From Ectothiorhodospiraceae bacterium (GTDB lineage: Bacteria > Pseudomonadota > Gammaproteobacteria > Nitrococcales > Aquisalimonadaceae), in NCBI GenBank assembly GCA_003565775.1, contig PXAT01000092.1, positions 1 to 62,786 of the forward strand: a DNA stretch of 62,786 bases, given 5' to 3'. The notes beneath the pieces are model-generated. The model was given only the letters and a program-made list of their open reading frames with translations, did no database searches and had not been told where the DNA came from. Of this stretch, positions 24,881-30,888 are shown one piece after another. Numbering within the stretch: position 1 is the stretch's first letter; the number at the start of each line of letters is the position of its first letter. Made by a program: the position numbers and the translations under genes.

Positions 24881-25531
24881 TCAGTCCAAAAGGCGCCTTA
24901 TTCGCACCAGGCTGCGTTGCGCGTCCAGGCCCGGCACCTGCAGCGGCAGATGCTCGGTACGCCAGCCGGCCGGCAGATCCTGTAACTCGCCGGCGGCATC
25001 GAATCGTCCTTTCATCGCCAGCATCACGCCATCCTCGCGGACCTGCTCACCGGCTGCCGCAACAAAGGCATCCACCCGGGCGAAGGCACGGGAGCAGACC
25101 GTGGCGAATGGCGCTGGCGCACGAAAGGACTCGATGCGCTGATGCACCACGGACAGAGCCGGCAGACCAAGTTGCAGGCGCACCTGCTCCATGAAACGGG
25201 TCTTCTTGCCGTTGCTGTCCAGCACGGTGACGTTCAACTCGGGCCGGCACAGCGCCAGGGGTATGCCGGGCAATCCGGCGCCGCTTCCCACATCGAGCAG
25301 CGAAGGGCCTTCAAGATAGGGAAGCAGACTGAGACTGTCCAGCAGATGCACCGCCACCATGGTCATCGGTTCGCGGATGGCGGAGAGATTGAAAGCCCGG
25401 TTCCAGCGGTGCAGCAGCGCCAGGTAATCCAGCAGTTTTGATTCGGGCACATCCTCGTCGAAAGCCGCCTGCTCCAGGCCCCGTCTCAGCTCCGCCGCGA
25501 CCGCCTCACGCGGGAAATCGGTTGCGCTCAT
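24881..25531 (-). CDS. rsmG: 16S rRNA m7G527 methyltransferase RsmG (GidB)
   Basis: 216 residues. The SAM-binding motif [17 protein letters not shown] and the preceding [21 protein letters not shown] are the RsmG signature. It methylates guanine 527 of 16S rRNA, and loss in other bacteria gives low-level streptomycin resistance. It overlaps the mnmG stop by four bases (25528-25531). Confidence 0.97.
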
Positions 25532-27426
25532 GCGCTGCGGCGACCGGGCGTCCGCCCCTCACCACGACGCAGATGCACCAGCAACAGGGAGATGGCCGCC
25601 GGCGTCACACCGGCGATGCGTCCGGCCTGCGCCACGGTGCCCGGACGATGGTTCCGAAGCAGCTGACGCACCTCGTGGGACAGGCCGCGGACCCGCTCGT
25701 AATCCAGACCATCGGGGATCGCCATGGCTTCCAGCCGACGGCCACGCGCGACCTCGTCCTGCTGGCGTTCCAGGTACCCGGAATAACGGGCCTGGATCTC
25801 CACCTGTTCGGCCACCAGTGGATCGTCGACACCCGGCCCGACGATCGGCACCGACATCAGGTCGGCATAGCCGACTTCGGGCCGGCGCAGCAATTCGTCC
25901 AGATGCTGTTCGCGCTTCAGCGGCCCGCCGAACACCCGCTGGGCAGTGGCCGGATCGAGATCCGACGGCCGCAGCAGAGTCGCCCGCAGCCGCTGCTGTT
26001 CGCGCTCGATGGCCTCGCGCTTGCGCTCGAACGCCGCCCACTGTGCGTCATCCACCAGGCCCAGGTCGCGCGCCACCGGAGTCAGTCGCAGGTCGGCATT
26101 GTCCTCGCGCAGCATCAGCCTGTATTCGGCCCGGCTGGTGAACATCCGGTACGGCTCTCTGGTGCCGCGGGTGATCAGATCGTCGATCAGCACGCCGATA
26201 TAGGCTTCGTCGCGCGCCGGCTGCCACGGCGCCTGCTCCCGCACCAGCCGCGCGGCATTGACCCCGGCCACCAGACCCTGCGCCGCGGCCTCCTCGTAGC
26301 CGGTGGTACCGTTGATCTGTCCGGCAAAGAACAGACCGCCAACACAGCGTGTTTCCAGACTCGGACGCAGGTCGCGGGGATCGAAATAATCGTACTCGAT
26401 GGCATAGCCGGGCCGGGTGATGTGCGCGTTCTCCAGCCCGACGCAGGTACGCACCAGCTCGATCTGCACGTCGAACGGCAGACTGGTCGAGATGCCGTTC
26501 GGATAGACCTCGTGGGTTTCGAGGCCTTCCGGCTCGATGAAGATCTGATGCGAGTCCTTGTCGGCAAACCGCACCACCTTGTCCTCGACCGACGGGCAAT
26601 ACCGGGGGCCGACACCTTCGATTTCGCCGGCATACATCGGCGAGCGATCCAGGGCGCCGCGGATGATGTCGTGGGTTTCGGCATTGGTATGCGTGATCCA
26701 GCAACTGACCTGGCGCGGATGCATGCTGCGATTGCCGCGCAGCGAGAAGACCGGCTCGGGCGTGTCACCGGGCTGTTCCTGCAGGCGGTTGAAATCGATG
26801 CTGCGGCCATCGATCCGCGGCGGTGTTCCGGTTTTCAGGCGGCCGACCCGGAACGGCCGCTCGCGGAGGGTGCGCGCCAGGGCATTGGACGGCTGATCCC
26901 CGGCGCGACCGCCCTGGTAGTTGTCCATGCCGATATGGATCCGGCCACCGAGGAAGGTGCCGACGGTGAGTACCACGGTCGGTGCCCGGAAGCGCAGCCC
27001 CATCTGGGTCACCACACCGGTCACACGATCCTGCTCGATGATGAGGTCATCCACGGCCTGCTGGAACAGGAACAGGTTCGGCTGGTTTTCCACCGCATGA
27101 CGCACGGCGGCCTTGTACAGGGCGCGATCCGCCTGGGCACGGGTGGCGCGCACCGCCGGCCCCTTGCGACTGTTCAGGGTGCGGAACTGGATCCCGCCCT
27201 GGTCGGCGGCCAGCGCCATCAGCCCGCCCATGGCATCCACTTCGCGCACCAGATGACCCTTGCCGATGCCACCGATAGCGGGGTTGCAGCTCATCTGACC
27301 GATGGTCTCGATGTTGTGACTGAGCAGCAGCGTCCGCCGGCCCATGCGGGCAGCGGCCAGCGCCGCCTCGGTGCCGGCATGGCCGCCACCCACCACAATC
27401 ACATCGAACGATTCGCGGTAATCCAC
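25528..27426 (-). CDS. mnmG: tRNA uridine 5-carboxymethylaminomethyl modification enzyme MnmG (GidA)
   Basis: 632 residues from a GTG at 27426, with CGGAGC eight bases upstream. The FAD-binding motif is [18 protein letters not shown] near the start; [22 protein letters not shown] and the C-terminal helical region are also present. With MnmE, encoded 3 kb upstream, it modifies U34 of several tRNAs. The 5' leader carries one end of a dispersed repeat (27458-27492) and a parS site farther out. Confidence 0.98.
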
Positions 27427-27582: not shown

Positions 27583-27992
27583 TAAGGAAACGCTGACGTG
27601 TTCCCACGTCTGCGCCCGAGACCGGTTCTCGTCATCTGGCAAACTGCAGTGCCGGATTCGGGCCGGGGTCGAAGCCACGTCACCCGGATGCGCCACACGC
27701 ATCAAGCCGGGCGGGCGGATGTCGGCGGAGGAATGACGATCGCAGGGACGCGATCGTCAAGCCCCCGGGGATGGGTTCACGGCGGTTCCGGAGCCGGCAT
27801 CCGCCCGCTCGGCATCGAAGCCCCAAGCGCGCAACCTGGCTGGGAGTCAATGTCCACGGCTGAGCCGCATTTTCTCGACTGCTGCGCTGCGCTGCTTGAC
27901 CGCAGAATGACTGCGGCGCTGCACACCGCGCCTTGCATTGAGAACAATGCGGACGCCAACACGAACATGCGAATAACTTCAGCGTTTCCTTA
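27583..27992. repeat. Complete 410-bp element with terminal inverted repeats
   Basis: Left end TAAGGAAACGCTGACGTGTT; right end on the opposite strand TAAGGAAACGCTGAAGTTAT. The terminal match extends about 30 bases with differences. The right part holds the conserved core shared with the copy at 62667, including hairpin CCGCAG-TCATT-CTGCGG (27900-27916 here, opposite strand) and GCAGCGC-type palindromes. There is no transposase inside. Its right terminus supplies the TAA stop of the neighbouring gene. Confidence 0.75.
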
Positions 27993-29279
27993 GACAAGAT
28001 GCGCGTAATCGGCCTCGATCCGGTCGAGGCTGAGCCTGTTGAGAAACCCGGAATAGGCCATCCACGCCGCCAGTGCGCTGAGATCGCTGAACTGCGGCGG
28101 CAGGAACCGGGGCGGGTTGACCAGGCCTTCCTCCACCAGCTGTGCCAGCACCGGGATATCCTCCAGCGTGACCTTGCCGCAGAACAGCAGGGGCACGCGG
28201 TCCAGACGGCCGTGCCGCACGGCCAGCTGAATGAAGTTGTAGACCATGATGAAACCCTTGCTGTAGCTCAGGTCCTTGGTAAACGGTCCGGCGGTCGGGG
28301 AACTGCCGCGGAACACGCGGCCGGCATGATTGAAGCTCTCGTCGTCATCCAGCCCCTGTTCGCGGAAGAAGCCGAAGACATCCAGAAAGGTGGCGCCCTG
28401 CTCGGCCATGGACACCGCACGGATGCGGTTGCCCAGCTTGCGCAGGCGATCCGGATACGAGGTGAAGGCAATGATTTCCATGAGAATGGCGAGCCCTTCC
28501 TGGGTCACGGTGGCCGAGGGCGGACCCTTGCTGAGGAAGGTGCAGACTGGCTGCTCCAGCCCGTTCAGCGTGGTGCCCACGTGCACCCAGCCCTCGTGCA
28601 CCTCCAGCATGCGCAGGTCACGTCGGCGGAAGCGGGCGTCCTCACGGATCTTCAGGTAATCGGCGCCGGCCGCGGCGTCGGCGACGATGCCGTCGTCGAG
28701 GAACACCCGCACCGGTGACTCTGACTCGGAAAAGGCGGCCGACAACCGTTCCTGCAGAATGCGCACTGCCTCTTCTGCGGTTATGTCCCGGGGCTCGGCA
28801 GCCAGATCGCTTTCGCGGTCGATATTGCTCAGGGTCTCGGCCAGCATCGCGCCCAGGTCGGCAATCGACGGATCGCCGGCATGAAAGGCGTCCGAGGCGG
28901 CGCCGTAGAGCTGTTGCGAGAGATTGCTGAAGGCCGGCGTGCCGCGCGCTTCGAGCATGCGAATCGCCATCTGGTACTCACGGCATATGCGGCCCATGAC
29001 CTTGCCTACCGGATTGAACTGGCCGAGCTGGCGAACGATGTCTCGCTCAATGGCGTGCAGCTCGCCGGCCAGGGCCTCGGGATCGAAACCGAGCGGTCGA
29101 TCCCGGTAATAGGCGGCATCCACCCGCGGCTGCTGTTTGCAATCGGCAGCGAAGAAGGCCTGCTTGATGCCGGCATCCCACTTGATCGCATCGAGAATGC
29201 GGATCGGTTTCTGCGCGGCGACAATCCGATCGGACAACTTGCGGATCGTTTCGCGGTAGGCATCGTTGGTATCGACCAC
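27990..29279 (-). CDS. QEGLA-motif protein, DUF1704 / MATCAP-like putative zinc metallocarboxypeptidase
   Basis: 429 residues from a GTG at 29279. A central zincin site is visible: HEGWVH (228-233), fitting HExxxH, followed by VTQEGLAILMEII with Glu261 in the QEGLA motif (260-264). This is the DUF1704 family, sometimes annotated as flavohemoglobin expression-modulating QEGLA motif protein. Its eukaryotic relatives include the tyrosine carboxypeptidase MATCAP, which gives the gluzincin reading. All motif residues are intact, so an active peptidase is plausible; the bacterial substrate is unknown. No signal peptide is seen. It interrupts the usual mnmE-mnmG spacing, has a 7-bp tandem array just upstream, and its stop codon belongs to a repeat element. 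Confidence 0.85.
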   Translation of the reverse strand: MVDTNDAYRETIRKLSDRIVAAQKPIRILDAIKWDAGIKQAFFAADCKQQPRVDAAYYRDRPLGFDPEALAGELHAIERDIVRQLGQFNPVGKVMGRICREYQMAIRMLEARGTPAFSNLSQQLYGAASDAFHAGDPSIADLGAMLAETLSNIDRESDLAAEPRDITAEEAVRILQERLSAAFSESESPVRVFLDDGIVADAAAGADYLKIREDARFRRRDLRMLEVHEGWVHVGTTLNGLEQPVCTFLSKGPPSATVTQEGLAILMEIIAFTSYPDRLRKLGNRIRAVSMAEQGATFLDVFGFFREQGLDDDESFNHAGRVFRGSSPTAGPFTKDLSYSKGFIMVYNFIQLAVRHGRLDRVPLLFCGKVTLEDIPVLAQLVEEGLVNPPRFLPPQFSDLSALAAWMAYSGFLNRLSLDRIEADYAHLV

Positions 29280-29306
29280 GAGAGGTTTCGTTCTCCGGAG
29301 CGGAAA

Positions 29307-29404
29307 GGTTTCAGGTTTCAGGTTTCAGGTTTCAGGTTTCAGGTTTCAGGTTTCAGGTTTCAGGTTTCAGGTTTCAGGTTTCAGGTTTCAGGTTTCAGGT
29401 TTCA
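29307..29404. repeat. Heptanucleotide tandem array, 14 x GGTTTCA
   Basis: Fourteen perfect, uninterrupted copies of GGTTTCA, 98 bases. It begins 28 bases upstream of the GTG start of the DUF1704 gene and ends 135 bases before the mnmE stop. The plus strand is open in all frames (GFRFQVS), while the minus strand has TGA in every frame, so it is not translated with the downstream gene. A candidate variable-number locus. Confidence 0.95.
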
Positions 29405-29538
29405 GGTCGAGGCTCGGCCCAGCCGGTAGACGTGTCAATGTTCCGGCCCCATCTTTCCCTGAACACGGAAACCCGAACACCACGGCCCTTTGAACGTTGG
29501 ACCTTGAACTCGGAACGCCGCCGCCCCTGGCGGCCCGC

Positions 29539-30888
29539 TCATTTACCGATACAGAAACTCGAGAAAATTTCCCCGAGCAGGTCGTCGCTGCTGAAGGCGC
29601 CGGTGATTTCGCCGAGGTGCTGCTGGGCACGGCGCAGTTCCTCGGCCATGAGTTCGCCGGCGGCCGGGCCGTGGAGCTGCGCATGCGCCGCCGCCAGGGC
29701 CTCGGCCGTGCGGCGTAGCGCATCCAGATGCCGGCGGCGCGCGATGAAACCGTCCTCGGCCGCACTGAATCCCATCACCGTTTTCAGATGCTGACGCAGC
29801 AGATCGATGCCGGCACCGCTCAGGGCGCTGAGACGGATCTCGCTACGACCATCCTGTTCGTCGGCCGCCGGCAGGCGGCCGCTGAGATCGATCTTGTTGC
29901 GCACCACGGTGACCGGCAGATCGGGTGGCAGCAGATCCAGCCCGGTCTGCTCCTCCGGCCCGGTTCCGCGCGCATCCTCCACCACCAGCAGAATACGATC
30001 CGCCGACTGCATCGCCTGATGCGCCCGGCGCACGCCCTCCTGCTCCACCGGATCGGCACTGTCCCGCAGTCCGGCGGTGTCCAGGATATGCAGCGGCATG
30101 CCGTCGATCTGGATCTGCTCGCGCAGGATATCGCGGGTGGTGCCTGCAATCTCGGTTACGATGGCGGCATCGCTGCCGGCGAGCTGGTTGAGCAGGCTGG
30201 ACTTGCCGGCGTTCGGTCGACCGGCGATCACCACGGTCATGCCGTCGCGCAGCAGTTGTCCCTGGCGGGCACCGGACAGGACCTCGTCCAGTTCCGCCTG
30301 CACCGCATCCAGTTTCGCCGCCACCTGTCCGTCGGCCAGAAAATCGATCTCCTCCTCGGGGAAATCGATGGCCGCCTCCACGTGCACGCGCAATTCGGTC
30401 AGGCTCTGCAACAGAGCATCGATTCGGCGGGAAAAAGCACCGGAGAGGGAGCGCATGGCAGCCCGCGCGCTCTGTTCGGAGCCGGCGGCGATCAGATCGG
30501 CGATGGCCTCGGCCTGGGCCAGATCGAGGCGCCCATTGAGAAACGCACGTTCGGAGAATTCACCCGGGCGTGCGGGTCGGGCACCCAGCTCGGACAGCCG
30601 ACGCACCAGCCGATCCATGACCACCGGCCCGCCATGGCCCTGGAACTCGACCACGTTCTCGCCGGTGAAACTGCCCGGCCCGGGCAGCCAGAGCAACAGA
30701 CCCTGATCCAGACTCTCGCCATCCTCATCGCGGAAGTGCCGGTAGACGGCACGGCGTGGCGCCGGCAGATCACCGGCCACCCGGCTGGCAATCGACCCGG
30801 CCTGCGGGCCGGAAACCCGAACCACGCCGATGCCGCCGCGACCGGGCGGCGTGGCAACGGCGCAGATGGTGTCAGGAAGCATTTGCAC
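29539..30888 (-). CDS. mnmE: tRNA modification GTPase MnmE (TrmE)
   Basis: 449 residues. The N-terminal tetrahydrofolate-binding domain opens [24 protein letters not shown] domain sits inside the helical domain, with Walker A GRPNAGKS (223-230) and NKID. The C-terminus ends FCIGK, the conserved catalytic CxGK motif. It works with MnmG on tRNA U34 modification. It follows yidC by 27 bases. Confidence 0.98.

Follow-up and report, generated by a model that had tools for sequence, protein, structure and literature searches.

A 62,786-nucleotide stretch of DNA from Ectothiorhodospiraceae bacterium (positions 1-62,786 of contig PXAT01000092.1 in assembly GCA_003565775.1; referred to in its full length as the window) carries a gene that separates mnmE from mnmG and encodes a protein of the MATCAP/QEGLA family, hereafter the QEGLA protein. 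The gene and its surroundings, which include two kinds of repeats, are listed in Table 1. Family profiles and a predicted fold show the product to be a zinc metallopeptidase that has the MATCAP/QEGLA fold, and its distribution among related genomes suggests that it may act as a C-terminal glutamate carboxypeptidase in the RimK/RimB system.

Table 1. Features of the window at the mnmE-mnmG locus
Feature	Position	Strand	Basis
QEGLA/MATCAP-like zincin metallopeptidase gene	27990..29279	-	429 residues, GTG start; family profiles and predicted fold
HEGWVH codons (residues 228-233; HExxxH): two zinc-binding His and catalytic Glu229, as expected from the motif	28581..28598	-	sequence, conservation
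QEGLA codons (residues 260-264); Glu261 is the expected third zinc ligand	28488..28502	-	invariant in alignment; aligns with EEGLA of human MATCAP
mnmE, upstream neighbour	29539..30888	-	open reading frame and comparison with relatives
mnmG, downstream neighbour	25528..27426	-	open reading frame and comparison with relatives
Composite interspersed repeat: MITE-like element (terminal inverted repeats of 17 nt) interrupted by a second repeat	27583..27992		genome matches
Perfect AGGTTTC tandem array, 14.6 copies, upstream of the QEGLA gene	29306..29407		repeat search

Protein family and zinc site

The QEGLA gene is intact and a typical representative of known families. Its open reading frame (ORF) is complete from the GTG start to the TAA stop and occurs as a single copy in its genome. 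The protein is matched by the Pfam family PF08014 (MATCAP) with 455.1 bits (cut-off 27; E 2.1e-136) over positions 1-364 of the 365 in the profile, and by the NCBIfam family TIGR02421 (QEGLA) with 406.6 bits, above the curated cut-off of 338.65. The zinc-motif residues of HEGWVH and QEGLA are invariant across a 32-sequence alignment, with G230 and W231 nearly so, and HExxxH and QEGLA are kept in all 43 sequences of our protein-tree set. The 32-sequence alignment also has invariant basic residues, namely R278, R285, R321, R324, K335 and K369. As HEGWVH spans residues 228-233, Glu229 is the expected catalytic residue. The zinc-binding and catalytic roles are assigned by analogy with HExxxH in the human relative, for which PMC10499314 locates the third metal-binding residue within an EEG motif. 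A preliminary description of this DNA had proposed a MATCAP-like zincin with intact HEGWVH and QEGLA motifs, which these matches bear out. It had also called the function of the bacterial family unsettled, and in the literature searched we likewise found no established function.

Predicted fold and comparison with MATCAP

When the alignment profile was compared with the sequences in the PDB, human MATCAP was the top match. This match is weak (E 0.087), with HE...H, EEGLA, RG, FSKD..Y and GK of the human protein in register with the QEGLA family. For structural comparison, we used an AlphaFold2 model built from 79 sequences (predicted local distance difference test (pLDDT) 86.7, predicted template modelling score 0.87) and set aside an earlier one built from 27 sequences (pLDDT 65). 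Foldseek matched the model to human MATCAP at E 1.1e-6, and the two superimpose with a Z-score of 22.4 and a root-mean-square deviation of 3.6 (307 aligned residues, 22% identity); the preliminary description had suggested this comparison of a structure prediction with MATCAP. Next in the fold list are three structures without known function (one titled DUF885, two putative lipoprotein; Z 14.7-17.5), followed by metallocarboxypeptidases, two of them titled M32, at Z 8.5-9.8.

The human relatives MATCAP/TMCP1 and TMCP2 (KIAA0895L and KIAA0895; PDB 7z5g and 7z6s) thus share with the window protein the Pfam family, the predicted fold, the HExxxH and (Q/E)EGLA motifs, and the aligned RG, F(S/T)KD..Y and GK motifs. 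They differ in having EEGLA where the bacterial protein has QEGLA, and in an N-terminal region of ~140 residues, compared with only 28 in the bacterial protein (residue 29 of the model corresponds to MATCAP residue 140). The bacterial enzyme presumably needs a substrate other than tubulin. The M32 metallocarboxypeptidases are a more distant comparison: the similarity in fold extends over 308-332 residues, whereas identity to the QEGLA protein is just 9-13%, and their motif is HExxH instead of HExxxH. Their middling Z-scores against the model may mean only a common arrangement. Finally, the window protein belongs to a family that NCBIfam calls 'flavohemoglobin expression-modulating QEGLA motif protein', within which the lineage of the window is distinct in having the gene between mnmE and mnmG.

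Subfamilies and their genomic partners

In a sample of 370 genomes drawn from the class, PF08014 is carried by 60. We sorted these, by their architecture and their percent identity with the window protein, into three subfamilies, which were defined before the RimK search described below; the lists of genomes in each were drawn up afterwards. Subfamily (i), to which the window protein belongs, comprises proteins of ~430 residues that are at least 41% identical to it (30 genomes, in one of which, G079, the gene is broken). Subfamily (ii) is ~30-36% identical and mostly 425-480 residues long (11 genomes), and subfamily (iii) has an N-terminal extension of ~290 residues or consists of fragments of such proteins (19 genomes). 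Of the 64 loci fetched from the class and the family of the window, the gene was recovered in 62 by ORF calling and in 63 by tblastn.

Subfamily (iii) has recurrent partners. A glutathione-synthetase-like ATP-grasp cluster lies beside the gene in 13 of its 19 loci, and a separate N-formylglutamate-amidohydrolase-like ORF in 9 of 19; in one scanned protein, the latter domain is fused to QEGLA. These partner domains (PF05013, GSH-S) were named on representatives only, and a Shinella record is annotated with the same partners. The literature searched gave no paper that brings N-formylglutamate amidohydrolase and ATP-grasp together. Three loci in which subfamily (iii) stands with amidohydrolase-like and glutathione-synthetase-like partners (L104 5472-8149, L097 3217-6244 and L352 3394-7138) point to an uncharacterised peptide pathway.

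The subfamily (i) gene lacks constant neighbours from one family to another. In Legionella adelaidensis, a gene of the window type runs in the same direction as dapA and murI. We examined 34 loci of subfamily (i), the window and 33 fetched ones, some of which are cut by contig ends. In three of the 34, the gene for RimK and a RimB-family gene lie beside the QEGLA gene; these loci (G363, G188 and G081) fall into two clades of the protein tree. The neighbouring RimK proteins score 445.7, 440.9 and 438.1 bits, over the S6-glutamate ligase cut-off of 331, and the RimB-family genes match the model NF052261 best, at 105-126 bits and so under its cut-off of 200. RimK is directly next to QEGLA in two of the loci, while in the third it is 1.6 kb off, with the RimB-family gene and corA in between.

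Co-occurrence with RimK

Because RimK neighbours QEGLA in these three loci, we searched the same 370 genomes for RimK (NF007764, S6-glutamate ligase, E <= 1e-90) and found it in 165. All 30 genomes with subfamily (i) have RimK, compared with 135 of the 340 others (Fisher's exact test, 6e-12, with relatedness ignored). It is present in 10 of 11 genomes with subfamily (ii), the exception being G414, and in 4 of 19 with subfamily (iii). The latter, with a ligase partner of its own, serves as an internal negative control and is the only control for the association. The RimB/RloA family (PF05618) is found in 173 of the 370 genomes, among them all 30 with subfamily (i), and is missing from 4 of the 10 RimK-bearing genomes with subfamily (ii).

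As relatedness matters for such co-occurrence, we built an MnmG tree. Its panel of 76 genomes consists of 27 carriers of the gene and 49 random QEGLA-less genomes, drawn regardless of RimK; four of 80 panel genomes had been dropped because they gave no MnmG match (G314, G407, G281 and G397, two of them carriers), as had G079 with its broken gene. RimK is present in 27 of 27 carriers and 18 of 49 others in this panel. For a rebuilt tree of 74 genomes, we removed two non-carriers with long rows (G303 and G261). On this rebuilt tree, Pagel's test gives a likelihood ratio of 37.7 (4 degrees of freedom, p ~1e-7), with the gain of QEGLA fitted almost only in RimK-bearing lineages. The best tree yields at most 14 independent pairs, of which ~9 (range 5-11) differ in the same way and none in the opposite way. 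Both results use a weakly supported MnmG tree (11 of 73 branches starred), so that the p value is indicative only. The distribution of RimK is itself patchy, with 24 changes on the tree, and a published survey describes separate rimB and rimK genes as scattered against phylogeny (PMC11957791); this makes a mere clade effect less likely. Within the family of the window, RimK occurs in all five carriers of the QEGLA gene and in all 14 genomes (in G013 as two fragments); in the genome of the window, it lies at C109:21001-21876.

Proposed function

According to passages of PMC10499314, human TMCP1 and TMCP2 and a Tetrahymena enzyme shorten poly-glutamate chains, and TMCP2 prefers a C-terminal glutamate. 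RimB, in turn, is described in parts of PMC11957791 as an endopeptidase that removes glutamate from polyglutamated S6 and requires five or six contiguous glutamates, which leaves room for an exopeptidase. On these grounds, we propose that the QEGLA protein is a C-terminal glutamate carboxypeptidase (deglutamylase) serving the RimK/RimB system, a function for which family membership, predicted fold and genomic association would make the chance, in our judgement, very nearly even. RimK would make poly-α-glutamate tails, attached to ribosomal protein S6 or to a different substrate, or free oligo-glutamate, and the QEGLA zincin would remove C-terminal glutamates singly from these products. It might thereby trim what the endopeptidase RimB leaves, or replace RimB where it is absent. 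The two enzymes would share a substrate, RimK-made poly-α-glutamate tails, but differ in mechanism: RimB is a retropepsin-like aspartic endopeptidase of the RimABK system that needs 5-6 contiguous glutamates (passages of PMC11957791), whereas QEGLA would be a zinc exopeptidase. In bacteria, the latter would then correspond to the TMCP/MATCAP deglutamylases of tubulin, which act against TTLL ligases.

Several observations weigh against this proposal. Where RimK and QEGLA genes are neighbours, they are convergent and form no operon, and such loci come from only two clades; in the genome of the window, the two genes are not neighbours, with QEGLA on contig C106 and RimK on C109. In a set of 80 loci from named genomes (L123-L202; by title 67 Pseudomonas, 7 Stutzerimonas and 2 of the window's family), RimK and RimB lie within the fetched flanks in none. 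Moreover, RimK does not need QEGLA, since in the window's family the former is found in all 14 genomes and the latter in five. The E. coli control genome likewise has RimK without a QEGLA gene, and among the matches listed, RimK is present, as judged by eye, in 6 of 8 gene-less members of the families with subfamily (i). As all 30 subfamily (i) genomes also carry PF05618, RimK and RimB cannot be separated as its correlates. If only supported branches of the MnmG tree are used, three pairs remain, on average 1.7 of them differing in the same way and none in the opposite way, which gives no power. Finally, we compared the C-terminal tails of S6 in 70 entries from 69 genomes, comprising 27 with both genes, 18 with RimK alone (one genome counted twice) and 25 with neither. 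By eye, the tails are acidic in all three groups. The last residue is glutamate in 6 of 26 (one open end omitted), 10 of 18 and 10 of 25, respectively, a difference that was not predicted (p 0.05 and 0.07, with relatedness ignored) and gives no clear answer.

In the literature searched, we found no earlier statement of a functional link between RimK and QEGLA: no paper linking QEGLA proteins with RimK (for PF08014, among the matches listed, all of which are on malaria), and none joining RimK, carboxypeptidase and polyglutamyl. Pseudomonas, in which the QEGLA gene is common in the genome collection, is also the genus where RimABK was elucidated. In Photobacterium damselae, the QEGLA gene A0J47_RS17025 is listed with 27.51 in a low-salinity transcriptome table, as excerpted from PMC10308900.

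Inheritance at the mnmE-mnmG site

ORFs and coordinates confirm the insertion between mnmE and mnmG that the preliminary description had reported. The gene is carried by five of the 14 genomes in the family (the window's own, G000, and G001, G002, G006 and G011), representing three of four genera; G001 and G002 share the genus of the window. Among named genomes in the collection, the closest proteins come from an Ectothiorhodospiraceae metagenome-assembled genome (91% protein identity) and from Methylonatrum kenyense AMT 1 (90%). All five carriers have the gene at the same site. The arrangement mnmE-gene-mnmG is whole in G000, G001 and G006, while G002 shows gene-mnmG and G011 mnmE-gene, each up to a contig end. 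Eight non-carriers of the family have mnmE immediately next to mnmG, separated by 90-168 nt; the ninth, G003, has this interval unassembled, so that absence there is not proven. Outside the family, the gene was found in none of 45 sampled relatives from the order and class. The preliminary description had named orthologs at the same locus across the order as evidence against a mobile gene, and such a pattern thus holds for the family and not for the order.

The five family proteins form one clade (Shimodaira-Hasegawa-like approximate likelihood ratio test, 100), whose inner order shows no conflict with a tree of MnmE and MnmG; on the latter, the presence of the gene needs three changes. Identities to the two congeners are 90-91% for the QEGLA protein, 84% for MnmE and 89-91% for MnmG, and those to the other two genera 74-75%, 65-68% and 80% (the latter for G006 only), respectively. 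The G+C content at third codon positions (GC3) is also alike, at 0.809 for the QEGLA gene, 0.810 for mnmG and 0.778 for mnmE. Judged by eye, the ORFs of at least 60 residues between mnmE and mnmG are the QEGLA gene and frames overlapping this gene, the repeats or mnmE, and no transposase or integrase was recognized by eye around the gene in the ORF list. In the simplest reading, the gene here is a single old insertion that was inherited vertically, with several later losses, and its position between mnmE and mnmG is probably unrelated to its function. We had considered an operon with mnmE/mnmG as a functional clue and rejected it, as just four of the 64 loci from class and family have mnmE or mnmG close to the gene, all four being from the window's own family.

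The mnmE-mnmG interval might be a general insertion hotspot, as two other order members have different genes there. G020 has a 4.8-kb block (L020 4315-8825) with ORFs that resemble mobA, apbC, moaB and moaE by eye, and G034 a convergent 454-residue ORF (L021 3429-4793) that by eye resembles a membrane protein with tetratricopeptide repeats; G015, G032 and G048 have smaller gaps.

Flanking repeats

Both flanking features that the preliminary description had noted, a repeat element on one side and a variable array on the other, are present. The downstream repeat gives 77 matches in its own genome, itself included. Read from the match coordinates, its outer element, which resembles a miniature inverted-repeat transposable element (MITE), is ~275 nt long where whole: the ends of the composite (query 1-79 and 276-410) recur jointly elsewhere, while the middle (60-275) recurs as another repeat. 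A terminal inverted repeat of the MITE-like element supplies the TAA stop of the QEGLA gene, and the gene of G002 is also followed by TAAGGAAACGCTGA. No AGGTTTC array is present in the assembled parts of the G001 and G002 spacers. The gene is constant among congeners while both its flanks vary. The repeats on the two sides differ in kind, and copies of the downstream one lie elsewhere in the genome, so that they hardly resemble the borders of a single mobile unit; we read them as local repeat traffic. The array stands between mnmE and the QEGLA start codon, and expression may be phase-variable.

Relatives on plasmids and in viruses

Relatives of the window protein were found in 94 of 72,556 plasmid records, all less than 60% identical (63 from Sinorhizobium and 9 from Pseudoalteromonas), and in one of 50,697 phage records, an 'UNVERIFIED' Pseudomonas phage (67% identity). 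A search of PHROGs with the window protein gave no match, and one of PADLOC-DB for families of anti-phage defence gave 0 at E <= 0.01. Likewise, a viral scan with a subfamily (ii) protein detected no relatives.

An IMG/VR sequence (IMGVR_UViG_3300032053_000565; L278 5980-7224, plus strand) encodes a QEGLA/MATCAP-like protein that scores 231.9 bits against TIGR02421, below the cut-off, and has HEGWVH intact and QEGLG in place of QEGLA. Its gene lies within a phage structural module, where the neighbours encode a major head protein (phrog_138) on one side and a head-tail adaptor (phrog_211) on the other. It would be unusual for a virion module to include a zincin.

Alternative explanations

The partners of subfamily (iii) also allow a broader explanation, in which QEGLA proteins are carboxypeptidases of small glutamyl or glutathione-like peptides generally, and not of RimK products, so that subfamily (i) would have the same role as subfamily (iii). 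The ligase clusters (13/19) and amidohydrolase-like ORFs (9/19) of subfamily (iii), together with the similar Shinella annotation, favor it, as does the co-directional arrangement with dapA and murI in L. adelaidensis. However, subfamily (i) is without those partners in the loci seen and tracks RimK instead, and we consider this explanation unlikely, if plausible enough to be kept in mind. We deem it rather improbable that the enzyme matures some unrelated protein C-terminus, with the link to RimK being a by-product of shared ecology or ancestry. Such a role would suit a patchy gene without fixed neighbours across families, and the families that carry it do look RimK-rich by eye among the matches listed; yet the phylogeny-aware test, the presence of RimK neighbours in two clades and the contrast with subfamily (iii) speak against it.

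The name of TIGR02421 implies that the protein modulates the expression of flavohemoglobin (nitric oxide). The literature searched gave no paper behind this name, and such a role, which we regard as very improbable, would leave the intact zinc site and the peptidase fold unexplained. Just as little speaks for mobile or accessory cargo that was captured between mnmE and mnmG via the flanking repeats. The preliminary description had suggested as much, and was right that presence is patchy (5 of 14 family genomes) and that a repeat element and a tandem array stand on the two sides; but the shared site in three genera (one-sided in two of the five carriers), the single clade, and a divergence and GC3 comparable to those of the neighbours largely contradict mobility, as do flanking repeats that differ between congeners and the scarcity of relatives on phages and plasmids.

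Implications for the QEGLA family

The proposed deglutamylase function would fit a theme that these systems have in common, the combination of a MATCAP-fold protein with an ATP-grasp amino-acid ligase. In subfamily (iii), it is seen in the gene neighbourhood, in subfamily (i) in the co-occurrence with RimK, and in the modification of tubulin in the TTLL and TMCP enzymes. TTLL ligases, too, are ATP-grasp enzymes. Bacterial QEGLA proteins might thus be exopeptidase erasers of RimK-type poly-α-glutamylation, and an ATP-grasp writer with a MATCAP-fold eraser, acting on the C-termini of proteins, would then constitute the prokaryotic counterpart, and possibly the origin, of the tubulin polyglutamylation code, a ribosomal protein taking the part of tubulin; this wider generalization we advance tentatively, as a possibility for which the odds are somewhat against us. 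The link to RimK gives a family that is common in bacteria a named candidate substrate. If true, it would complete the writer/eraser pair of bacterial polyglutamylation and tie a eukaryotic family of microtubule enzymes to a bacterial system that modifies the ribosome.

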